Below, piece by piece: positions 4,670 through 36,291 of a DNA stretch of 64,000 bases. The DNA is taken from the NCBI RefSeq assembly GCF_039602135.1, contig NZ_CP125942.1:3100001-3164000 (forward strand). The letters run 5' to 3'. How positions within the stretch are numbered: the stretch's first letter is position 1; the number at the start of each line of letters is the position of its first letter. The notes under the pieces were generated by a model. It saw only the letters and a program-made list of their open reading frames with translations, had not been told where the DNA came from and did no database searches. The stretch comes from Glutamicibacter sp. B1 (GTDB taxonomy: Bacteria; Actinomycetota; Actinomycetes; Actinomycetales; Micrococcaceae). Made by a program: the position numbers and the translations under genes.

Positions 4670-7600
4670 TTACTTCACAGTCAGCCTCAAGAACGTGACC
4701 GAGTAGGCCGGAACCTCATAGTCAAGGCCATTCTTGTCGGCCTTGAGTTTGAAGTCCCTAGGAGAAACCTTCATCGGATCCTCCTTGGTGTTCTGCGCCT
4801 CGGGAGCCGCGACCAGTTCCGTGGCCTTAACCGTGGAACCAACTTTGACATCATCTACCGAAATCTTGGTCTGTGATGCGGTAGCGGTAGGGTTGACCAG
4901 CTTCACGATCAGCTCGTTGTTCTCGGTATCGCGGGTGACCACCTGGTAGAGCGGCTTGGCGGCAGGTTCGGTGTACTCGAACTGGAATTCACCATCGAGG
5001 TACAGCTTGATGGTATTTCCCTCAACCACGATCTTCACCTGGTAGTCCTTACCGGTTTCCAGGCTCAGGTTTGGACCGGCAGCCACCTCACCCTGGCGGG
5101 CAGAGTCGGCACGTTCCAGGACCGAACGAGTGTTGCCCCAACCTCCGAGGTTCCACCAGTAGAACTTGTCGGCGGCCCCGGCGGCGAAGCCGATGAGGAA
5201 GCCTTCCTTGCCGGCGTCCTTCCGCGCGGTAAGTTCCACCGTGTAGTTCTTCCAGTCCTTGTCATAGGCGCCGGTGATCAGGCTACGAGCATCCTCGATG
5301 TTCGTATCCGACTGCACGTAGCGCCCATCTTCAACATTCCAGGCACCGCGTTGCGCTTCCCACTTCGAATCATCGGTGAAGTCGTCGCTAAAGAGTTCTT
5401 CACCGGATTCATTGTCGGTGACGCGTAGGTTGTCGTAGGAGGTTTTGGTCTGCCAGCTGCTCAGGAAGACGCCGCCGGTCAAATCCGGTGCGGTGGAGCT
5501 CTTCCCGGTCAGCGTGGAAGGGACCACCTGATCGCCGACGTTGTTCATCCACAACTTCTGGTTGTAGTAGTTGGCCGAACCCCAGGACTGCTTATTATCG
5601 AACCACATCATGTCCGGGGCCCACTGAACATAGTCCTCATTGGCGAACATGGGTGCGTAGGATGCGAGCTTCACAACGTCCGAGTTTCGCTCCAGGCCGG
5701 TCATGTAAGCAGCCTCGGACAGGGCGTTGGCGAAGCTATTGCCACGTGAGGCGTACTCCCCCAAGAACACGGCTGGGCCGCTGCGGTCATAGGAATCGTA
5801 ACGCTCGTCGTTGCCCAGGAACCAGGAGGGGTCGTTGTAGTAGTGTTCGTCGACCATGTCCACGCCCTGGGCCTTGTTAAACCGCCAGAGTTCATCAAAG
5901 CGGGTTCCGGTGTCATCGGGGCCGCTGTTGGAAATGATGGTGATCTCCGGGTACTTCGCCTCGATGGCGTCGCGGAATTTGCCGAAGTTCGCTTCGAAGG
6001 TCTTGGTCACTTCTTCATTGCCCAGTCCGATGTACTTCAGGTTGAACGGTTTGCTGTGACCCAATTCGGCACGCTTGGCACCCCAGGTGGTGTTCGTGTC
6101 ACCGTTAGCAAATTCGATCAGGTCCAAGGTGTCTTGAACCCAGCGATCGATGCGTTCGGAATCGGTCATTTCTGGAATCTTAGAACCACAACCATTGGCT
6201 CCCACCGAGACGACCGGTAGCGCGGTGGCGTCCAAGTCCTCGGCCCACTTCAGGTATTCCAGGTAGCCGATGCCGTAGGACTGGTTGTAGCCCCAGAAGT
6301 TCCAGTTGGTCGGACGGGTTTCAACTGCCCCGATGGTTTCCTTCCACTGGTAGGTACGCTGGCGGTCCTGACCATCGGATTCTTCATAGGTGTCGAAAGT
6401 TCCAACGTTGGTGACACAGCCACCGGGGAAACGCAGGAAGCTGGGGTTCAGGTCGGCCACTTTTTCGGCCAGATCCTTACGCAGTACGGACTTGCCGTTC
6501 ACTGGACCCACCCAGGTATCTTGTGGGAACAGGGAGACCATGTCCAGCTTGAGCGATCCGGCTGCCGTGGTCGCAAGGCTCAGACGGCCCGAATCGGTGC
6601 TTGCCTTAGCCTTGATCGTGACCTTGTACTGTTTCCATTGGTCGCTGCCGTCCACCTTGATGCTTGCGCTGCCGTAGACCTTGGAGGTCTGCGGGTCGGT
6701 GAGCTGAACATCGAGCGTCTGGGCCTTGGCAGATCGTGCGAAGACACTGAAGTCGTATTTGGCTCCCTTCTTCACTGCGAGCCCCGAGTTATAGGACTGG
6801 TTCTGAATTCCATCACCCTTGGCCGTAGCCTTCAGTTCAAGGTAGGCGCGGTTGGAGTCGTTGAGCCATTCAGCGCGTTCAGAACTGACTTTCGCTTCTG
6901 CCTTACCGATGGTTTCCCACCCGGTCAGTGGCGTGAAGTCCTTATTATCGGCCTTACTGAATTCGAAGGATCGGTTGCGTACCAGCTCGGCGTAGAGCCC
7001 ACCGTCAGCGGCGTAGTTGATGTCCTCGTAGAAGGCACCGTACATCGTATCGCTGATGTCATGCGCCGTGGCATCACCATCGATATTCAGTTCTTGTTGC
7101 CCCAGTTCACCGGAGCCTAGGGTGAAGCTCACGGCTTGGGACTTGGCGCCCAAACGCAGTGAACCGTTCTTATGGCGGATCACCCACGCAGCATTTTCAT
7201 TGGTAGCTCCAGCTAAGCGTAGATAGCTCTTGCCACCGCCGGCATCTACGATCCGCCACGTGGTTTCTGCACCCTCGCTCAGCTGCAGTTTCCCATTTCT
7301 GTGCGACAGGTTTCCATTGGCGCTGGAGAGGATCAATGGATGTTCGGTCTCAGAATTCCCCTCGCCCGATTCCTTGGCGGTGAAGCGCAGGGCGGTGCTT
7401 GGACGGGTAGTACTCAGTTCTAGTCGCTGCTTCTTATCGGCGGCGAGGTAGAGCGAATCATCGGTGGGGTTCAAGGTAAATGGATCGGTGGGCACCAGGT
7501 CGGTTGCCCCGGATTCATCCAGCCAGAAGCTGTCGAAGGATGCGGTATGCCCGGTGCCGTCCTGTGCGGCCAGCGCATACAGGCCAACCTTGGTGGCGTT

Positions 7601-9281
7601 CCAATCCACCGTGAAACTTGAGGCCTTGGCCCAGTTTCCTTCTGCGTCACCGTAGTAAACAGTGATTTCCTTGCCCTTGCGGTCTAACCGCAACCACTCG
7701 GTGGTGGATTCTGGCCGCGCGGTGAATTGGGAGGCATATGCTCCGGCCGATTCGGCAGCGCTTTCGATCACCACCGGGCCTTCGGCGGCACTGGAGACAT
7801 GGGCCAAGCCAGCACGGACGTAGTTATCGAAGTCTTTCCAAGCCAATAGTCCGGCGCCTTGGAAGTCCTTAGATACCGGGGCGGTGAGGTGGGTGGCCAC
7901 CGAAAAATCGCCGGCCGGGACATCAACCATGAACAGGTTCTTGGCGTCGTTGGAATCCTGCCAGGTGTCCCCTCGTTGAGAGGTCAGCACCAGGGCTGAA
8001 TCCTTGAGCTGCCAAGCTGAGGCTTGTTCGTTAATAATGGAGAACCGGTCATCCAGTTCGGTCCCATCAAATTCCTCACGGAAGGTACCTTCGGGAAGTT
8101 CGGGGTCCGGTCCGGGAACAACTGGCCCCGGGGTTTCTGGTTCTTCGCTGGAAGGATAAGCGGCGATCAGCGCCTGTTGCTCTTCGGCGGTAATAGGTAG
8201 GACGGTGCCGTGGCGTGGGCTGGTGGGAAGTTTCGCGTCGGGCACGCTGGTCCACTGTCCACCGGCCAGATCCTCGGTCTCGAACACCATATAGCCCTTG
8301 CCGCCGTGGTACGAAGGCTGGTCGATCATCAGATACCAGCTGTCGTCGGTCAGTGAGGGGAACATCGTCGGGCCTTCACCCGAGGTAAAAGTGCCACCCC
8401 AAGGGTTAGGCTGACCCACACCGATATGCTCGGCCAACAGGTCCCATCCATCGCCTTCGCTCACACCCTGGGTGCGCAGCAATTCTGGCGAGGACTCCAT
8501 GCGAACGCTCATGTCGCCTTCGTCTTTGGTCAGACGGTAGTAGGTGTCATCGACCTCTGCCACGGTGGAGTCAATCATTCCCAGCCCTGGACCTTGACGT
8601 TCATCAATCCACACCTTGGGCTCTGAGAAGTCCTTAAAGTCAGAGGTGGTGGAGTACATCATGCGCTGGTAAGAGTCTTTGATGTCGCGCTGATCTGCGG
8701 GAACATCATCGGGATAGAGGGCTGAAGCCCAGTAAACCACGTACTGGCCGGTGGCCTGATCCCAGTGTGCTTCCGGAGCCCACAGGTTCCCGGAGTTATC
8801 TGGCGAGAGCTTCACTTCGCGCTGGTCGGACCAGTTGATCAGATCCGAGGACTCCCAGATCATCAGTGAGTGGCTTCCGGTTTCTTGGGCGTCACCGAAG
8901 GTACCACCACCATACATTTTGAGGTCGGGTGGCTAGCAGGTAGTACTTTGAACCGTCTTCCGATCGGATCAGGAAAGGATCGCGTAGGCCCTTGGTGCCT
9001 AGCTCTGATTCCAAAATTGGTTTGCCGTCATTGAGCGTGTACCAACTATTGGGATCAGACCCTTTAGAGACGGCAAGATGAATTTTTTCTCCGTCATCCG
9101 TGCTTTCACCGGTGAAATACGGAAAGACATAGGCTGCATAGTCCGTGTCCGATGTCCCATCGCCCGGCGATTGGGCGATGTTCGCACTACTGCCGTGCGG
9201 AACCGCGGCGAGCGCCGAGGCGGGTATTGAGAAGGAGACGAGCAATGCCAAGGGCACGGCCCATCGTTTACGAGGATGCAT
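4670..9281 (-). pseudogene. Secreted GH43-GH51 alpha-L-arabinofuranosidase, split by a one-base frameshift
   Basis: Restored length is about 1536 residues. Order: signal peptide (cleavage near ASALAAVPHG), GH43 propeller (about 40-375), concanavalin-like beta sandwich (about 395-590), beta-trefoil-like module (about 600-725), GH51 catalytic region with an inserted CBM4/9-like domain (about 735-1240), a second laminin-G-like domain and a closing beta sandwich. In GH51 the acid/base glutamate is in GLGNEE and the nucleophile in FLGEYA. The upstream frame reads YYLLAT and then leaves frame at the CCC run complementary to 8927-8929; dropping one C gives ATDLKMYGGG, the expected GH43 sequence, and makes the length a multiple of three. 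Either a real inactivating mutation or a sequencing error. A GGAGG site precedes the start (GTG at 9284 or ATG at 9281). Last gene of the arabinoside operon. Confidence 0.85.
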
Positions 9282-28192: not shown

Positions 28193-29215
28193 CTAGCGGC
28201 GTGGCAATTGCTGGGTAATGCAGTGGATACCGCCACCGCGGGCGAAGAGTTCGCGGGCATCAACGCTGATCACTTCGCGGCCAAGATAGGCCTCGGCAAG
28301 GATCCGTGCTGCCTGCTCATCGTTGGGGTCATCAAAAGCGCAGGCGATCACCCCGCCATTGGTGACTAGATGGTTGATGTAGGAATAGTCCACCCAACCT
28401 TCCTCGTCGCGCAGTACCTGCGGTGCCGGTACGGCAATGAGCTTGAGTTTTCTACCTTTCGCATCGGTGGATTCTTCGAGGCGTTCTCTGACTTCTTGGG
28501 AGATCAGGAAGTCCGGATGTTCTGGGTTCTGTTGATCGTGATAGAGCACTACGCCGGGAGCAGCAAAACAAGCCACAATATCCACGTGTCCGCGGGTGCC
28601 AAATTCTTCATTGTCACGAGTCAATCCGCGGTCTAACCAGATGACCTTGCTGGTGCCCAGTACTCGGGAGAATTCTTCCTCAATCTGTGTTGCGGTGGCG
28701 CCCGGGTTGCGCTCTGGATCCAGCTGCACACTTCGGGTGGCCAGGATGGTACCTTCACCGTCGACGTGGATTCCCCCGCCTTCGTTGGTGATGTTGGCGC
28801 GGATTTCTGGCACTGCCGTGTACTGCACAAGGTGGCCTGCAATGAGCTGGTCTTTCTCCCAGCTGGCCCAGCTTTGAGCACCCCATCCGTTGAAGTTCCA
28901 GTTCACGGCGGCCAGGGTATTTTCTGCGGTGCGCACGAAGGTGGGTCCGATATCGCGCATCCATGCGTCGTCGAGTTCATGGATCAAGTAGTCCACCGCG
29001 TCACCGAGATGCCGGCGGGCATCAGCATGGGCCGATGGGTCGACCACCATGGTGACCGGGGTGAAGGTGGCGATGGCTTTGGCCACTTGGCTCCAGGTGT
29101 TTCTGGCAGCTTCGGCTTCTTCTTCGGTATCCCCTAGGGTGTAGCCGCTGGTAGGAAAGGCCATGAAGATGCGTTCGTGGGCTTCGGTCTCTGCAGGCAT
29201 AAAGAACTTAGACAT
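28193..29215 (-). CDS. aguA: Agmatine deiminase
   Basis: A 340-residue guanidine-modifying enzyme that hydrolyses agmatine to N-carbamoylputrescine and ammonia. Seen: LDDAWMRDIGPTFV, WNFNGWG, TNEGGGIHVDGEGTIL, RGHVDIVACF and the catalytic cysteine in GGGIHCITQQ near the C-terminus. ATG at 29215 (MSKFFMPAE) overlaps the end of the amidase gene by 8 bases and has a GGAG site. The pair with the amidase is the standard agmatine-to-putrescine route; both are likely controlled by the divergent TetR regulator. Confidence 0.9.
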   Translation of the reverse strand: MSKFFMPAETEAHERIFMAFPTSGYTLGDTEEEAEAARNTWSQVAKAIATFTPVTMVVDPSAHADARRHLGDAVDYLIHELDDAWMRDIGPTFVRTAENTLAAVNWNFNGWGAQSWASWEKDQLIAGHLVQYTAVPEIRANITNEGGGIHVDGEGTILATRSVQLDPERNPGATATQIEEEFSRVLGTSKVIWLDRGLTRDNEEFGTRGHVDIVACFAAPGVVLYHDQQNPEHPDFLISQEVRERLEESTDAKGRKLKLIAVPAPQVLRDEEGWVDYSYINHLVTNGGVIACAFDDPNDEQAARILAEAYLGREVISVDARELFARGGGIHCITQQLPRR

Positions 29216-30185
29216 TGCTGGTGCTCCGTTCACCTAGGCCGGAATCGTTGCGGGCTTCGCCCATGACACCGTAGGTTTCTGGCCTGCGGGTACGCAGGAA
29301 CGGGAAGAGGGTGAGCCAGTCACGGCGTGCGTCCAAGTCCAGTGTGGCTACCAGTACCGCGGATTCATCGCGTGGGGCACGTGCGAGGATGCGACCGTAG
29401 GGGTCGGAGATGAAGGAGGAACCGTAGAAGGTGAGCGCTCCTTCGTCGCCCCAGCGGTTGGGGACCACCATGAATAGGCCATTGGCGATACCATTGCCGA
29501 TGATGGTTTGGCGCCAAAGGGGTTCGGTATCAAAGTCGGGATGGTCCGGCTCAGAGCCGATGGCCGTGGGGTAGGCCAAGAGGTCGGCTCCGGCCAGCGA
29601 GTAGATGCGCGGTGGTTCGCTGAACCATTCGTCCCAGCAGGTCGGTAGGCCCATGGCAATATCGCCCAGTTCTGCTACACGGTGTACCGGGTATGGATCT
29701 TCGTTGGGTCCTTCACGGAAGTACTTGTCCTCGTAGTAGCCCGCGGTGCGCGGAATATGCAGTTTGTTGGTAGCGGCTACCAGCTGACCGCTGGGCGAAA
29801 CGATGATCGCGGTATTAAGCCCGAGCCGGTCCTGCGCAGGGGCTTTGCGGAACAGCGAGATGTGTACGTGAATGTCGTATTTCTCGGCCATTTTCTTGGC
29901 AAAGCTGAAGGTCTTGCCCGTCATCAGGTCTTCGGCGGTGGCATCAGCTTCTGTCGCCTCAGGGATTTCGAAGGCCGGGTATTTGCTCAGCGTGAGTTCT
30001 GGCAGGAAGACAATTTTGGCGCCGTGCTTGGCTGCAGACTTGATGCCTTCTTCTAGTTTGGCTTCAGTTGCTGCCGGGTCTTCATGCCAGCGATGCTGGA
30101 CCAGAGCTACGGTGAGCGTGCCACGTTCGGCATCGTCGACGCGTGCCGGGGAGACCGGTGGATTGAGGGCCAGTATTTCTTGCAT
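29208..30185 (-). CDS. aguB: N-carbamoylputrescine amidase (nitrilase superfamily)
   Basis: A 325-residue carbon-nitrogen hydrolase. The catalytic triad is Glu63 in FLPELTLSKY, Lys141 in TNKLHIPRT and Cys183 in LPTCWDEWF. The linked agmatine deiminase makes N-carbamoylputrescine the most likely substrate, giving putrescine, CO2 and ammonia. Start at 30185 has AAGGAAC upstream. The gene begins 20 bases from an AAACGAAT palindrome, so it is probably repressed by the divergent TetR protein. Confidence 0.87.
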   Translation of the reverse strand: MQEILALNPPVSPARVDDAERGTLTVALVQHRWHEDPAATEAKLEEGIKSAAKHGAKIVFLPELTLSKYPAFEIPEATEADATAEDLMTGKTFSFAKKMAEKYDIHVHISLFRKAPAQDRLGLNTAIIVSPSGQLVAATNKLHIPRTAGYYEDKYFREGPNEDPYPVHRVAELGDIAMGLPTCWDEWFSEPPRIYSLAGADLLAYPTAIGSEPDHPDFDTEPLWRQTIIGNGIANGLFMVVPNRWGDEGALTFYGSSFISDPYGRILARAPRDESAVLVATLDLDARRDWLTLFPFLRTRRPETYGVMGEARNDSGLGERSTSNV

Positions 30186-30328: not shown

Positions 30329-30958
30329 ATGGCCAGGCCTTCCAAGCCCAAGCTCAGCACCACTTCAATTGCTGATGCTGCACTCAAACTCGTGGACGCG
30401 CATGGAGAGTTCACCCTCCCGCTTCTAGCTAAAGAGCTCTCAGTATCCGCATCATCGCTCTACAACCATGTTCAGGGCAAGGCAGAAATTATCGAGCTGA
30501 TGCGCGGGCGAGCCATGGCGCAGATTCAGCTTCCAAACTTGCAGCAGGTCACGTGGCAAGAAGCTGTCGAAGCCATTGCCACCGAATACTGGACGTCCTA
30601 TTCCGAGCACCCACGGCTTATCCCCCTACTTACCAGCCACACGGTCAGAGATAGCACCACATTGCGTGTCTACGATGCCCTGGCCGAGGCTTTCGCACTG
30701 GCAGGCTTTGATCCCAAGCGTCGCCTCCAAGCCATCACCATCATCGATTCTTTCGTCCTCGGTTCTGCCTTAGACGCAGCTGCACCAGAAGTTGTATGGG
30801 AGTCCGGACCAGAATCTTCGCACTATTTCAAGGAAGCATTAGAAGCCGATTTAGCCGATAGCAACCGATCCCGTGTGACCTTTGAGCTAGGACTTTCCAT
30901 GCTGTTGGAGTCTCTTGCACAGCAGAGTTCCGCAGGCACTTTCAAGGCAGGAAAATAG
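30329..30958 (+). CDS. TetR/AcrR family transcriptional regulator
   Basis: A 209-residue repressor. The N-terminal helix-turn-helix is TTSIADAALKLV ... FTLPLLAKELSVSASSLYNHVQGKAE, typical of TetR. The C-terminal part (about 80-200) is the ligand and dimer domain. Start has GAGGGGAATTC upstream. It is divergent from aguB/aguA with two matching palindromes between; a polyamine or agmatine ligand is a reasonable guess. Confidence 0.9.
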   Translation: MARPSKPKLSTTSIADAALKLVDAHGEFTLPLLAKELSVSASSLYNHVQGKAEIIELMRGRAMAQIQLPNLQQVTWQEAVEAIATEYWTSYSEHPRLIPLLTSHTVRDSTTLRVYDALAEAFALAGFDPKRRLQAITIIDSFVLGSALDAAAPEVVWESGPESSHYFKEALEADLADSNRSRVTFELGLSMLLESLAQQSSAGTFKAGK

Positions 30959-30982: not shown

Positions 30983-32107
30983 CTAAGAGCAGGTGAAGTC
31001 TCTCGCGAGCAGCAGCCCGGGGTGGTAAACGATGGTGCGAGTCGGAGAGTCCGCCACCGGCGAGACCCATCCAATGTTGCTGCCGCTTTCAGTGACGTCT
31101 TTGTTATCGGTGGTGTAAACCACCAGAAGCTTAACCTCCATAGTCTGCGCCCCACCCTCCGTGATGAGCCCTATCAGATTGAGTCTTGGCCCATAATCTG
31201 TAGAGGTTGCCCCGGAAGCCAAACTCGTATACCTATAAGTAGATGAGTCGACCTTGGTCCTTACTGCCAAGCGTGCTCCCGAAGGGAGTTGCTGCGCAGG
31301 CCATGACACGGTAGCTGTAGTCAGTAGTAACACTCGAGACTCTGTACAGGCCAAGGAACCCGTAGCCGGTTGCACTATATTTGCCTGCACCGCAGCAGAC
31401 GCGGTGGCTGAACCGGTAAACGCTGCATGAGTAGTTTCGCTTTTCGGCACCTGCAAGACCAGTGCACCCAGCAACACCACCACGGTCAATCCGCCGATGG
31501 TTCGGGAAAGATTCCCTAGTTTCTTTCGCCCCGCTGTCCTGCTATGCGAATCTTGTTCACCGGGCTCCGCAGATTGGGATCCGTGCAGTTCTTCATTTGA
31601 ATCATCTGGTTTGGAACCTTTTCGCCAAAACGCAATATACAAAAGGTACCCACATAGCAGAATGCCAAGGGTATAAGCCCATGGTTGGCTCAGCCACGTG
31701 ACAACATAGCCAAGACCAGGGACACTCAAGAACAGGTGATCCATCTGTTCGACGCTGTAGGTTTCTATGTCGGGAACAGGGTTGGCATCGCCTTTGAGAA
31801 CCAGCCCTTCGGGAGCCTTTTCAACAACTCGATGGGTAATGCGTTCCCCCTGAGAATTGACCACCGACACCACATCGCCAACGTTAACTTCCTCAACCGA
31901 GGCAGGCACAGACAAGCCCAAGGCCCCCACAGGTATTCCCGGTCCCATAGATCCCGAAACAAATACCAAAGGCTTTATGCCAATGACCATCGCCAGCACC
32001 GCTAGGAGCAAGCAAAGACTTCCAAGTCCGGCACCGAAGTTCAACAAGAATCGCTGGAGCGGCCCGAGCGATGATTTGCTCTCGTGTCCAGTTCGTTGAC
32101 TACCCAT
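30983..32107 (-). CDS. SipW-type signal peptidase fused to an alternate-signal exported domain
   Basis: A 374-residue protein in two parts. Residues 25-160 form an ER/SipW-type signal peptidase I: membrane helix, catalytic Ser53 in SGSMGPG, His92 in ITHRVVEK, the GDANPVPD box and a second helix (about 143-161). After a Ser/Glu-rich cytoplasmic linker (165-195), a third helix (203-220) leads into HAAFTGSATASA, which looks like the cleavage region of the SipW substrates in this same cluster, and then about 140 residues of beta-rich extracellular domain with two cysteines. A peptidase joined to what looks like its own substrate is unusual. Start at 32107 lies 1 base after the previous stop. Confidence 0.75.
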   Translation of the reverse strand: MGSQRTGHESKSSLGPLQRFLLNFGAGLGSLCLLLAVLAMVIGIKPLVFVSGSMGPGIPVGALGLSVPASVEEVNVGDVVSVVNSQGERITHRVVEKAPEGLVLKGDANPVPDIETYSVEQMDHLFLSVPGLGYVVTWLSQPWAYTLGILLCGYLLYIAFWRKGSKPDDSNEELHGSQSAEPGEQDSHSRTAGRKKLGNLSRTIGGLTVVVLLGALVLQVPKSETTHAAFTGSATASAAVQANIVQPATGSLACTESRVLLLTTATVSWPAQQLPSGARLAVRTKVDSSTYRYTSLASGATSTDYGPRLNLIGLITEGGAQTMEVKLLVVYTTDNKDVTESGSNIGWVSPVADSPTRTIVYHPGLLLARDFTCS

Positions 32108-32108
32108 C

Positions 32109-32684
32109 TTATGACCCCACACTCGAAGTGAAGTCCAAAGAAATGGTAGTTGAAGCACCTTGCAGCGCGTTCGCTGCGGTCAAGGGAAGTGAATATTGAA
32201 CGCACAGAGATTCACTGGCTCCCGTGGCCAAAGGTCGTGTGGCCGAGGCACTCCCAAAACTCGTTCCCGTGTTCTTAGTCATCAGCGTGGTTCCACCCGA
32301 GCAGGTGACGTTCGAGCCCGAACCACTCAGGGTTGCGCCGGTCTTCACTAGGATCGTTAGCGCAGAACCTAAGGTGGCACCTCCGGATTCAGTAATTTTT
32401 CCTTGGAAAGAATAGGGCGCAGAAATAGAACCAGTATTCTTCACAACCACTACCGATGCAGAGCTTGCCCCCGGATATAGATTGTTACCGTTTATCGGCA
32501 TCTGGTAGCTCGCCGATGTTGCACTACCTGTCGTGGCGCCAACCCCCAGCGCAACCGTCGCCGTGCTGATGTTCGAAGTGGCAGTAGCCTGGCCAGTCCA
32601 AGAAGCCAGCGTTGAGACCGCACCAAAGCCAACGAGGATGCCCAGCGACAAGATCGCCTTGACTCGTACCGATTTACCGCTCAT
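32109..32684 (-). CDS. SipW-dependent-type signal peptide protein (TasA/camelysin-like)
   Basis: A 191-residue exported protein. The N-terminus has basic residues, a hydrophobic run SLGILVGFGAVSTLASW and then TGQATATSNISTATVALGV, the style of alternate signals cut by SipW-type peptidases. The mature part is a Ser/Thr/Gly-rich beta protein with VVVVKNTGSISAPYSFQG, like the TasA/camelysin fibre family, and two cysteines. ATG at 32684 follows AAGGGAGGGAG and overlaps the upstream gene by 11 bases. Likely a surface or fibre subunit. Confidence 0.72.
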   Translation of the reverse strand: MSGKSVRVKAILSLGILVGFGAVSTLASWTGQATATSNISTATVALGVGATTGSATSASYQMPINGNNLYPGASSASVVVVKNTGSISAPYSFQGKITESGGATLGSALTILVKTGATLSGSGSNVTCSGGTTLMTKNTGTSFGSASATRPLATGASESLCVQYSLPLTAANALQGASTTISLDFTSSVGS

Positions 32685-33330
32685 GCTTCGTCTCCCTCCC
32701 TTGGGCAATTCTTTGATTCCGGTTTCGACTTGCACCTAGCGCAATGCTTCCTGCGACTAGAGATCCCAATGCCATCAGTAACCACAAGCTACTAAATCCC
32801 GTATCGGCTAGTTCATCCTTTTCTTCTGGATCAGTCCCTTGGGGCGATTGATCTCGGGGAGCCTGACTCGGCGGTTGATCACTGTCATAGGTTTCCACGG
32901 CATCAATGCGCACCTGCAATGATCGCTCCTGCCGATCTTCAGCTAACTTATCTGCTGACCACGGCAGTCCGATTTTGAGCTCAAACTTCTTGGCTTGCGC
33001 AGGTTGCAACCTAGCTACCGATGCGTTGACGGTTTCAAAATACATCCTGGTCGAAGCCTCCGGTTCAATGGGTTGGACCGTGACTTCGATTCCGGTGGGG
33101 CGATCATTACGCACCCACAATGATCTAGTGATCTCGTCCCCCGGTACCAGGGTCGACTCATCTTCGAAGAGTGGCGGAGGATCCTGAGAGTATGTCTGCC
33201 CATCACCGCTGTAACTCAGGCCTTTTTCCGTGGAGGAAGCGGAAGCTCTGAGGACATTAGCACCTGGAAATACCTGCAGTACAACGGCCAGGAGGGCGGC
33301 ACATAGAGAGAGGCGCAGTATGCTCTTCAT
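32674..33330 (-). CDS. Cell-wall-anchored protein with LADTG sorting signal
   Basis: A 218-residue protein with a Sec-like signal peptide (1-30), a beta domain (about 35-148) containing LVPGDEITRSLWVRN, a Pro/Asp/Glu-rich linker, and a sorting signal LADTG (174-178) followed by a helix and a basic tail. This would be cut by a sortase that is not encoded in the window. The LVPGD motif is shared with the 184-residue protein of this cluster. ATG overlaps the upstream peptidase stop (ATGA). Confidence 0.72.
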   Translation of the reverse strand: MKSILRLSLCAALLAVVLQVFPGANVLRASASSTEKGLSYSGDGQTYSQDPPPLFEDESTLVPGDEITRSLWVRNDRPTGIEVTVQPIEPEASTRMYFETVNASVARLQPAQAKKFELKIGLPWSADKLAEDRQERSLQVRIDAVETYDSDQPPSQAPRDQSPQGTDPEEKDELADTGFSSLWLLMALGSLVAGSIALGASRNRNQRIAQGRETKHER

Positions 33331-33893
33331 CGTTGCTTACCCTGCCTCTCTCGCCATGCCCCAATGAACATCACCAGGGAGTACACGATCAAACCGCCAG
33401 CCACGACCCAGGTCAGCCAGGTTCGTTGTTGCATAGATAAGGCGCTGTTGACGTAACCCAAGAGCGGGAGTGAGTACCAAAGCTTTCCCCGAATTTGTTC
33501 GCTGCGCACTGGATCATCCACGGTGTTATTGGCATCGCCCTGGAAGATGATCCGCTGTTCACCGCTCAGGTTTGTTCCCATGGAGACGACCCGATGCGTG
33601 ACGACTTCTGGCTCACCAGATTTCAGTTGGTACGTCGCCACATCACCAATGTGAAGTTCTTTCGGATCCAGTGGCTTCACAACTACCAAGGTGCCGGGAG
33701 GAAAATTCGGGCGCATGGAACCGGTGAGCACCGTATAGGCGGTGGCTCCCCCAAGTTTTGGAATCACAATCATGAGTGCAATAAGAGCGAGCACAATAAA
33801 GAGCACGAGCCACGAAATGATCTGGCCGCTCCACCAAAAGATTCCTGTCTTTTGTGGCCGTTCACCACCGCGGATTCGCTCTTGAACGCTCAT
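33327..33893 (-). CDS. Signal peptidase I, ER/SipW type
   Basis: A 188-residue peptidase with an N-terminal membrane helix (about 25-46), catalytic Ser59 in LTGSMRPNFPPG, His100 in VVTHRVV in place of the usual bacterial lysine, the QGDANNTVDDP box, and a C-terminal helix. The Ser-His dyad is the mark of the SipW/ER class. ATGA overlaps link it to genes on both sides. It probably processes the exported proteins of the cluster. Confidence 0.87.
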   Translation of the reverse strand: MSVQERIRGGERPQKTGIFWWSGQIISWLVLFIVLALIALMIVIPKLGGATAYTVLTGSMRPNFPPGTLVVVKPLDPKELHIGDVATYQLKSGEPEVVTHRVVSMGTNLSGEQRIIFQGDANNTVDDPVRSEQIRGKLWYSLPLLGYVNSALSMQQRTWLTWVVAGGLIVYSLVMFIGAWRERQGKQR

Positions 33894-34465
33894 CGTTGTT
33901 GTCCCGTGAAACGTAGATTCAACGAGAGCTTTCCACCAGAGGCGGATTGTGGCGCCTGCGAAGGAATCGACACACGAATGCACAAGTTTTCGGTTGAGTT
34001 AGTTGAGCCAACACCCAAATCTCTCGCGGAAGCAAAGGACGCGTCAGCACCCAACGGTCCAACGTAGAGCTGTTGACCCGTTAATGATTGGCCAGCTTCA
34101 CAGGCTGCCTGATCCATTCCGGTATAGATGCTCAGTTGCACGGCATTGGCCAGCGCTCGGTCAGCAGCCGTCGGTGAAGCCAGAGAATTTGTCGCGCCAT
34201 CCAGCTGATATGACAACGCAACTGTGCCCGCATTACTCATCGCTAACGGAGCCTGGGTAAACGATCCTGGAATTAAAGCAGAACCAGAAAGCTTAGTGAA
34301 TTGAAAGTCCTTTGCACCGCCAGCTAATAAGCTGAGTGATCCAGTCTTTATTGTGGGCGGGTCAACTCGGCTTTCTGCGCGCCACGAAGCGGCCGTGCCC
34401 TGCGCGCTGATTCCCAGCAACAACAGCACGGCCGCGACTAAGGCGAACTTCAGCGGTTTTGGCAT
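33890..34465 (-). CDS. Exported protein with alternate-type signal peptide
   Basis: A 191-residue protein with the N-terminus MPKPLKFALVAAVLLLLGI followed by GTAASWRAESRV, the A-A-S-W motif also seen in the sister proteins. The mature part is beta-rich with IKTGSLSLLAGG and two cysteines. It resembles actinobacterial alternate-signal exported proteins. Function is inferred from the cluster. It follows the 184-residue gene by 24 bases. Confidence 0.7.
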   Translation of the reverse strand: MPKPLKFALVAAVLLLLGISAQGTAASWRAESRVDPPTIKTGSLSLLAGGAKDFQFTKLSGSALIPGSFTQAPLAMSNAGTVALSYQLDGATNSLASPTAADRALANAVQLSIYTGMDQAACEAGQSLTGQQLYVGPLGADASFASARDLGVGSTNSTENLCIRVSIPSQAPQSASGGKLSLNLRFTGQQR

Positions 34466-34489
34466 ACCCCGAAAAGCACTAGTCCTTAG

Positions 34490-35044
34490 TTACGAACGGA
34501 CCTGATCCAAGGTCAGTGTCAGGGCCTGAAGGTCTACCACTTGGTCATAGGTCGATGGTGGTGTGTCTCCCACCGCACCCTCGTCGAAGGTGACGGTGAT
34601 GAGGAACGGAACAGCATAAGTACCTGGTTCAGCGAAGCTCAGGGTTCCATCAGTTTCTTCGGTGATTCCCGGCGCCGATGCATCTACCTTGAGGTCAACG
34701 GTGACGTAGTCTGCAAGGCCCTTCAAATCAGTAGCTTCCTGATCAACGCTGAGCACGCCGGCAATGTTCTTTCCTTCAGCATCAATGGTGGCGGTCTGGC
34801 TGAAAGTCACGACATCGCCAGGAACAAGTTGCTGGGTCGTTGGATCGAATGGCTCCGGTGCATCCGGGTTGCTGATGTCCTGCCATTCGCCGGTTCCGGT
34901 GGTCGTCAAGTTCAGATGGCCTGATTCGATGGTACCTGCGTCAATGGTCTGAGTTGCTTGCCAACGTGCAATCGTTCCCGCACCACCGAGTAGCAGAGCT
35001 CCAGCTGCAACGGCGGCGATGGTTGCCTTGGTTACTTTTTTCAT
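34490..35044 (-). CDS. Alternate-signal-mediated exported protein (RER_14450-like)
   Basis: A 184-residue protein. N-terminus KKVTKATIAAVAAGALLLGG, then GTIARWQATQTIDAGTIESGHLNLTT, which is the pattern of the actinobacterial alternate signal family (TIGR04089-like by recognition). A single beta domain with QQLVPGDVVTFSQTATIDAEG follows; there are no cysteines in the mature part. First gene of the cluster, with GAGGACAGG upstream, so probably the most expressed subunit. Confidence 0.75.
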   Translation of the reverse strand: MKKVTKATIAAVAAGALLLGGAGTIARWQATQTIDAGTIESGHLNLTTTGTGEWQDISNPDAPEPFDPTTQQLVPGDVVTFSQTATIDAEGKNIAGVLSVDQEATDLKGLADYVTVDLKVDASAPGITEETDGTLSFAEPGTYAVPFLITVTFDEGAVGDTPPSTYDQVVDLQALTLTLDQVRS

Positions 35045-35253: not shown

Positions 35254-36291
35254 TCAACCGTTGGGAGCAGAAGCGAAAAGGTTCAATCCCATCGCTCTAG
35301 ACAACTGGCCAATGGCCAACTGCGCCCGCACGGAATTCCCTGCCATGTCCAGTGGTGGTGAGAATGCGCCAATGGCGCCTTTACCCGGTGCCACCGCAAC
35401 AATGCCGCCGGAAACTCCCGACTTCGCCGGGATACCAATTTCAAAAAGCCATTCGCCCGAGCGTTCGTACAGGCCATTGGTGGCCACCACAGCCAAGGTG
35501 TCTCGGCAAACATCCGCATCGATGACACGTTGGCCGGTGACCGGATTGACTCCACCATCAGCCAAGGTGGCGCCCATGATGGCTAGGTCATGTGCGGTGA
35601 CGTTTAGCGAGCACTGTTTTGTGTACACATCAACAGCGTCAAAGGGATCCTCATCTAATCGTCCGTTACTTTTGAGCAAGTATCCCAAGGCCTTATTGCG
35701 CTCGTTAGCCAACGACTCAGAATGGTAAACCTCGTCATCTAGGCTCAACGAACGACCAGCAAAAGCTGAGAGTCCTTCCCGAACGTTCTCCCACTTTTTT
35801 GCTGCGGTCTTTCCGGGGATCATCGACGTGGTGGCAATTGCCCCTGCATTGACCATCGCATTCATCGGGTGACCATTATTTAGTTCGAAGGCCATGACCG
35901 AGTTGAACGACATTCCGGTGTTGTTCACCCCGATGCGTTCACGTACCGCTTCTCGACCATGTTCCTGAAGAACTAGAGCGTAGACAAACATCTTGGAGAT
36001 GGACTGAATGGAGAAGTGATAACCGCAGTCCCCCACCGAGTGCACCGAACCACCGACGTGAGACATGGCAATGCCAAAAAGGTTCGGGTCCGCTTGGCCA
36101 AGAACCGGGATGTAGTGAGCCAACAGGCCCTCATCAACATCCGCATAGCGTTCGTGCGCTTGCCGCAACAACTGATCGATCTGATCATGTTCCAGCTCAC
36201 CGGTAGAAACCTGCTGGACCACATCGTCAAAATCTGTTGGGATGGTCTCGTTATTACCTTCCGAAGGATAGTTCACGCTCACCTGCCTCAC
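35254..36291 (-). CDS. glsA: Glutaminase
   Basis: A 345-residue serine-dependent beta-lactamase-like glutaminase that converts glutamine to glutamate and ammonia. The catalytic Ser-x-x-Lys motif is in FSIQSISKMF (Ser97, Lys100); also NNTGMSFNSV, NAMVNAGAIATTSM, YLLKSNGR, TNGLYERSGEW and PAKSGVSGGI. The start is uncertain: GTG at 36291 or GTG at 36276, the latter having a better-spaced GAGG. Single gene. Confidence 0.92.
   Translation of the reverse strand: MRQVSVNYPSEGNNETIPTDFDDVVQQVSTGELEHDQIDQLLRQAHERYADVDEGLLAHYIPVLGQADPNLFGIAMSHVGGSVHSVGDCGYHFSIQSISKMFVYALVLQEHGREAVRERIGVNNTGMSFNSVMAFELNNGHPMNAMVNAGAIATTSMIPGKTAAKKWENVREGLSAFAGRSLSLDDEVYHSESLANERNKALGYLLKSNGRLDEDPFDAVDVYTKQCSLNVTAHDLAIMGATLADGGVNPVTGQRVIDADVCRDTLAVVATNGLYERSGEWLFEIGIPAKSGVSGGIVAVAPGKGAIGAFSPPLDMAGNSVRAQLAIGQLSRAMGLNLFASAPNG

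Follow-up and report, generated by a model that had tools for sequence, protein, structure and literature searches.

A six-gene cluster of Glutamicibacter sp. B1 with a signal peptidase fused to an exported domain, probably for a cell-surface protein fibre

The soil actinobacterium Glutamicibacter sp. B1 has a 3.60-Mb single-contig genome that holds a compact cluster of six genes, which probably forms a kit for building a cell-surface protein fibre and in which one of two signal peptidases is fused to an exported domain. The stretch of DNA analysed (the window) comprises 64,000 nucleotides (nt) of contig NZ_CP125942.1, positions 3,100,001 to 3,164,000, and all positions below are those of the window unless another contig or locus is named. 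The cluster occupies the minus strand at 30983..35044 and is flanked by a tetR-type gene (30329-30958, plus strand) and a glutaminase gene (35254-36291, minus strand). The six open reading frames reported in a preliminary description of the window were all recovered on the minus strand at the positions listed here, in the 5' to 3' order A, B, S1, C, D, S2, with probable starts at 33893 for S1, 32684 for D and 32107 for S2. The genes had been described as tightly linked by overlaps. This applies to three of the five junctions (B/S1 and S1/C with 4 nt each, C/D with 11 nt), while A and B are separated by a gap of 24 nt and D and S2 by 1 nt.

34490..35044, minus strand: A, 184 amino acids (aa), alternate-type signal with site IA↓RW, candidate TasA-like beta-sandwich pilin
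34919..34966, minus strand: residues 27-42 of A, a candidate donor strand at the mature N-terminus that has no pairing partner in the model
33890..34465, minus strand: B, 191 aa, small exported protein and pilin candidate with site AA↓SW, a relative of A and D
33327..33893, minus strand: S1, 188 aa, endoplasmic reticulum (ER)-type (Ser-His) signal peptidase with two membrane helices
32674..33330, minus strand: C, 218 aa, ordinary AxA-type signal and C-terminal anchor, pilin-like by profile
32797..32811, minus strand: LADTG sorting motif of C, read from the sequence
32109..32684, minus strand: D, 191 aa, small exported protein with site LA↓SW, pilin candidate
30983..32107, minus strand: S2, 374 aa, ER-type signal peptidase fused to an exported domain
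31625..32107, minus strand: peptidase part of S2, residues 1-161, with conserved S53, H92, D107 and D113
31424..31516, minus strand: S2 residues 198-228, third membrane helix and predicted internal cleavage site HA↓AF, placed by site alignment
31364..31423, minus strand: S2 residues 229-248, the D-like N-terminus of the exported domain (cargo)
30986..31423, minus strand: S2 residues 229-374, the cargo, a predicted fibronectin-III-like sandwich with C254 and C373

The genes were found to be conserved together in the synteny comparison that had been proposed. The order A-(B)-S1-C-D-S2 fusion was present in 36 loci from 30 distinct genomes including that of the window; six of these loci are second copies of genomes already fetched, and two loci from different species (L034 and L035), in which the last 120 residues of S2 share 117, are both counted. 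The full order was seen in 16 of 30 family-level stretches, namely the window and 29 fetched stretches drawn from the best-scoring places of a search, and in 20 of 80 named loci, which are the best of 320 relatives and do not give a frequency. The genomes with the full order span Micrococcaceae, Nocardioidaceae and one Rhodococcus. Among them are Glutamicibacter nicotianae, G. uratoxydans, G. protophormiae and G. soli, Psychromicrobium silvestre, several Nocardioides, Aeromicrobium sp. Leaf350 and Rhodococcus sp. KRD197, the Nocardioides loci being without B. Within the genus, seven of the eight listed genomes (the window's own and six others) have the six genes in order. In the eighth (G127) the cluster is absent and the tetR gene lies 28 bp from the glutaminase gene (L219 7315-8968), a clean empty site which suggests that the block comes or goes as a whole.

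Both peptidases exceeded the cut-off of TIGR02228, the model of ER/archaeal-type signal peptidase I (84 bits for S1 and 58.2 bits for S2, cut-off 51.85), and no further match to this model was found in the genome. Both were below the cut-off of the Bacillus SipW model NF046067 (69.8 and 36.8 against 190 bits). The cluster had been said to encode two Ser-His signal peptidases, which is correct for both proteins except that S2 is not a plain one. It has hydrophobic segments at residues 32-50, 143-161 and 203-221, and residues 162-374 (57% of the protein) consist of a linker, a third membrane helix and an exported domain, which was overlooked when S2 was counted as a plain peptidase. In 30 aligned fusions S53, H92, D107 and D113 of S2 are invariant, and a Foldseek search with its peptidase part gave SEC11C first (E 2.0e-3). 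A tree of 172 peptidases was made with a quick method, leaving out identical sequences, pieces shorter than 110 aa and a phylum sample described below. It separated an S1-type clade of 60 rows (Shimodaira-Hasegawa-like approximate likelihood ratio test support 99) from an S2-type clade of 103 rows (support 98), so that S1 and S2 are old paralogues. As had been proposed, the pair of peptidases genuinely distinguishes the cluster from the Bacillus locus, and the distinction is an old one. A 71-row S2 subclade (support 96) contained 49 of the 52 fusions with an aromatic cleavage site (see below) and 15 unfused rows. Well-supported branches force at least six changes of the aromatic-fusion label, so that either such fusions were gained or lost repeatedly or some were missed by the thresholds used.

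The last 146 residues of S2 constitute a separate exported domain, here called the cargo, behind the third helix and the TasA-like site HA↓AF. Its residues C254 and C373, as well as A228 at the site, are invariant in 30 of 30 aligned fusions, and 31 of 35 cargos have a cysteine shortly behind the site and another close to their end. According to a structure model and Foldseek, the cargo is a complete fibronectin-III-like sandwich with the conserved cysteine pair and a flexible N-terminus (predicted local distance difference test score, pLDDT, below 50 for residues 231-238). PF00041 (FN3) was matched by 5 of 30 cargos (best E 0.001). We rejected the possibility that this FN3-like domain is a pilin homologue, as profile comparison with A, B, C and D gave at most 4.8%. 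TapA gave no match to the cargo in a single-sequence PDB search and was not among the listed fold matches.

The N-terminus of the cargo is similar to that of D from the same locus, with a mean score of 27.0 against 7.7 for shuffled sequences in 33 loci. For 25 distinct loci the mean was 29.3 against 7.4, and p<0.05 was reached in 21 of 25, counts that are not independent because the loci are related to one another; excluded from this test were an additional fusion in L163, another in L171, and any loci whose S2 and D termini were identical. Counted from position 6 on, the similarity still gave p<0.05 in 16 of 25 loci, and the own D outscored the mean of the other loci's D in 23 of 25. Against B and A, p<0.05 was obtained in 3 of 16 and 6 of 23 loci, respectively.

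The alternate-type signals ascribed to A, B and D were confirmed, since all three carry an aromatic residue at P2' and their signals are not ordinary. Protein A is an alternate-type signal exported protein according to TIGR04089 (134.5 bits, cut-off 60) and exceeded TIGR04088 as well (20.7 bits, cut-off 19). The proposed check with these two models turned out positive for A but not for B, which was under both cut-offs (28.3 and 15.4 bits), nor for D, which had no family match in the profile scans, TIGR04089 included. The two models resemble the present case in covering A; they describe a protein family and a signal domain and not an operon or a fused peptidase. In the own genome TIGR04089 matched only at A and B. 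TIGR04088 matched at A above its cut-off, and also at B, at D and, weakly, at one other place. Members of the D family alignment matched TIGR04088 in 15 of 30 cases (best E 7.8e-8), PF12389 in 4 of 30 (best 0.0017), NF046066 in 1 of 30 (0.062) and, weakly, the BsaA model in 6 of 30 (best E 0.0095), the PF12389 and NF046066 matches being counted without reference to the cut-offs of these models. A search of the window's own A, B and D with the TasA/camelysin models PF12389 and NF046066, also proposed earlier, gave no match.

The AlphaFold2 model of A (pLDDT 80.8) is a beta-sandwich without any strand before residue 43, which leaves the mature N-terminus unpaired. The TasA fibre 8aur ranked first of 950 Foldseek matches to this model (E 9.3e-3, probability 0.89), followed by chaperone-usher pilins at ranks 2-10. 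The structure prediction that had been suggested thus pointed in the expected direction, the fold likeness of A to TasA being of modest significance and, like the fold of the cargo, dependent on models. PDB searches and Pfam/NCBIfam scans gave no link between A and TasA by sequence only; just the fold search and the profile of D pointed toward TasA, the latter having the archaeal bundling protein AbpX as its best, weak PDB match (E 0.098). Archaeal bundling pili (AbpA/AbpX), which PMC9674648 also cites, are pili of the TasA kind and are not known to have a wall anchor or sortase. Profile comparison gave 97.5% for B with A and 99.5% for B with D, and for C it gave 85.8% with A, 83.9% with B and 78% with D, so that by profile the four proteins are related to one another. 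The N-termini of A, B and D were also mutually alike, those of A and B most. Each has an N-terminal segment comparable to the donor segment of TasA, which polymerises through an N-terminal donor strand (residues 28-38; F29 is one of the contact residues; PMC9674648).

P-type signal peptidases handle an aromatic P2' residue poorly; this holds for LepB, and TasA, with F at P2', requires SipW (PMC10269814). The P2' residue of the window's A, B and D is tryptophan, that of S2 phenylalanine. In the 36 full-order loci the pattern A-x-[FWY] was found behind the signal helix in 35 of 36 A, 25 of 25 B and 34 of 37 D, shuffling giving an overall expectation of 5.5-6.4. In C it was found in 3 of 36 against 5.5 expected, a rough figure as many C frames start too early. 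Without the six duplicates the pattern was present in 28 of 30 A, 19 of 19 B and 28 of 31 D. The 30 full-order genomes contain 32 fusions, 31 of which have an aromatic site. Among all 90 fusions with duplicates removed, 63 had an aromatic site, 12 a sorting signal (2 had both) and 17 neither. A signal profile made from A, B and D scored above 5 bits in 42 of 121 S2 proteins, in 41 of them past residue 150, and reached E<0.01 in 14 of 121, compared to 0 of 121 shuffled sequences and 0 of 16 S1 proteins. One protein included in both the 121 and the 14 (P0109) was considered as a D-S2 fusion because of an N-terminal signal match and was dropped, since it reads like a frame-shifted metagenome gene.

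The protein with the LADTG sorting signal was confirmed as C, which has the motif followed by a membrane segment and a basic tail and qualifies as sortase-anchored given a sortase in the genome; it does not reach the curated LAXTG models. The median length from the cleavage site to the PG motif was 32 in C against 46 in A and 41 in both B and D, with overlapping ranges, the C lengths being mostly upper bounds as the first AxA-like place was used. From its sequence C appears to be a pilin-like protein without the N-terminal donor segment. The preliminary description had taken a missing sortase as a feature distinguishing the cluster from the Bacillus locus. We rejected this, since the sortase is absent only locally: the genome has one, of class E, at C1:19190-19975, and a sortase was present in 18 of 18 relatives searched. 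Nor would it be a difference from Bacillus, as the operon there is described as tapA-sipW-tasA, without a sortase in the accessible part of the source (PMC9674648). The C proteins of relatives carry LPNTG, LPTTG, LPVTG, LPQTG or drifted forms. Among the C genes of L032-L047 and the window, canonical LPXTG was seen in several other genera, and drifted motifs in Glutamicibacter and near kin (LADTG, LSDTG, LGSTG, LVDTG, LGDTG, LGETG, LGETR).

Fused peptidases were also found in other arrangements. In a second architecture (L048, L050, L051, L053, L055, L059 and L061), D-like genes, usually two, precede one of a sister set of S2-type peptidases. The domain fused to these enzymes is C-like (profile match to C 95.5%) and has an LPXTG-type signal at its C-terminus. 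In genome G077 (L045 7461-8768), S1 and C form one frame of 435 residues that ends in an LAGTG signal, so the other peptidase paralogue, too, occurs fused to a cargo. Since a fused domain with a terminal sorting signal would be expected to part from the enzyme, such fusions speak for cleavage. More distant cargos were RCC1, LamG, glycine-rich or DUF5305 domains, the LamG or RCC1-like ones occurring in two other Actinomycetota loci. A phylum sample of 40 regions, picked mostly for long open frames and not giving frequencies, contained 20 fusions among 42 peptidases, nine with A-x-[FWY], two with a sorting signal and nine with neither. DUF5305 was found in all five of the latter nine that were tested, so that peptidase fusions extend beyond those with an aromatic site. 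In ER-type peptidases of other Actinomycetota (L101, L109, L114, L115 and L118), DUF5305 follows a third helix and the aromatic-site pattern is absent.

Of the described systems that come close to the cluster, the tapA-sipW-tasA operon of Bacillus subtilis shares with it a dedicated ER-type peptidase, substrates with aromatic P2', a beta-sandwich subunit with an unpaired N-terminus (for A by its model) and a minor partner whose complete Ig-like fold goes together with a cysteine pair and an N-terminus like that of the pilin. TapA has a complete immunoglobulin (Ig) fold with a C92-C188 bond, can only start a filament, and is nearly identical to TasA in its first five residues (PMC10151520). The same paper reports that a low ratio of TapA accelerates polymerisation and that a high ratio makes the fibres shorter. 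The cargo of S2 appears to have the same three features, a complete sandwich, a cysteine pair and a pilin-like N-terminus, as judged by sequence and model. Unlike the Bacillus operon, the cluster has two paralogous peptidases, three pilin-like proteins and a wall-anchored pilin-like protein, none with a TasA or camelysin family match, and its TapA-like domain is fused in frame to the second peptidase, TapA being a separate polypeptide. The CapP-TasA-CalY system of Bacillus cereus likewise has several filament proteins and a chaperone-like partner processed by SipW; as far as the available text goes, it has one peptidase and is sortase-independent (PMC13082335), whereas one component here has a sorting signal. 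In the sipW-bsaABCRSD locus of Clostridium perfringens, which produces BsaA filaments, an ER-type peptidase also lies beside small exported filament proteins; the accessible part of the paper describes one peptidase and a two-component system (PMC7395162), whereas the present cluster has two peptidases, one of them with a fused cargo, and lacks a two-component system.

We consider it somewhat better than an even chance that the six genes form an operon whose products build a donor-strand surface fibre of the TasA type, with a donor-only starter, shaft pilins and a wall-anchored acceptor end. The cleavage, polymerisation and end-piece roles that we infer are as follows. S1 and/or S2 would cleave A, B and D, and S2 or S1 would cut the cargo off S2 at HA↓AF. 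The cargo, freed or still tethered, would have a complete FN3-like sandwich and a donor strand of the D type; able to give a strand and unable to take one, it would start or cap the fibre beside the enzyme that releases the subunits, acting as TapA does for TasA fibres in Bacillus. A, B and D would both give and take strands and make up the fibre shaft, and C, a sandwich without donor segment, would take the last strand, the class E sortase attaching it to the wall. The preliminary description had already proposed a surface fibre or matrix. This gains from TasA ranking first for A, the profile kinship of A, B, C and D and the conserved aromatic sites and peptidases, while its missing sortase as a difference from Bacillus and its plain S2 peptidase were not borne out. 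Neither of the two findings named there as contradicting it, ordinary Sec signals in the small proteins and a lack of joint conservation, was made. More tentatively, and at somewhat less than even chances, the peptidase that matures the pilins may bear the fibre initiator, the single donor-only subunit, as its own C-terminal substrate and cut it in cis where the pilins emerge. Fusing a peptidase to a cargo would then be a device of actinobacteria in general, the domains seen fused to S2-type and other ER-type peptidases being FN3-like, LPXTG-anchored, LamG, RCC1, glycine-rich and DUF5305.

The cargo might also never be cut off and, within the same kind of fibre system, stay part of the peptidase as an FN3-like domain that faces outward and by which precursors are recruited or put in order, much like a built-in accessory subunit of a signal peptidase complex. 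S2 is a single polypeptide in a conserved order, its flexible linker and third helix could remain in the membrane, and the site of the window's own S2 scores -2.4 with the signal profile of A, B and D, which weighs against the proposed cleavage. With A228 invariant in all aligned fusions, the aromatic site nearly so in full-order genomes, and the fused domain of the sister set ending in a sorting signal that makes sense mainly upon release, we regard a permanently attached cargo as unlikely.

We find it similarly improbable that the cargo is a tip adhesin which caps the far fibre end and binds a surface, instead of an initiator. FN3-like domains are common binding modules, and the LamG or RCC1-like domains fused in two other Actinomycetota loci look like ligand binding. 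A donor strand without a groove belongs at the chain-starting end, and in TapA this end starts assembly (PMC10151520); tip and start would coincide only if the fibre grows from its wall-side end.

Just as little probability is given to A, B and D being non-polymerising proteins, secreted soluble or wall-bound, in a cluster that is a dedicated export module only: the window's proteins match no proven fibre protein family and their TasA-type likeness is modest and at the level of fold, but this is opposed by the many donor-strand pilins in the Foldseek list of A, the unpaired mature N-terminus in its model, and an anchor protein, C, that is profile-related and yet without donor segment.

The new part is the peptidase-cargo fusion with its TapA-like design, the fibre reading as such being plausible. 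Searches of open-access PubMed Central text, a library without most subscription journals, pointed to neither this fusion nor such actinobacterial fibres. If the donor-strand reading is true, an actinobacterial operon present in several families joins the known cases of TasA-type fibres, and its fibres have definite pieces at both ends: one that only donates, at the start, and one that only accepts and is anchored to the wall. The start of the fibre at the membrane would be simply explained by the initiator being part of the processing enzyme.

Scans for promoter-like sites (0 against 2.9 expected) and terminator-like sites (4 against 4.9) were not informative, and a repeat search gave nothing notable. 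Beside the tetR gene, at 28193-30185, lie two overlapping genes for a PAD_porph-type deiminase and a carbon-nitrogen hydrolase, which resemble an agmatine deiminase and N-carbamoylputrescine amidase pair. Further away, at 4670-8917, the window encodes a protein of 1415 residues with alpha-L-arabinofuranosidase domains, a carbohydrate-binding domain and a GH43-type match in its C-terminal domain.

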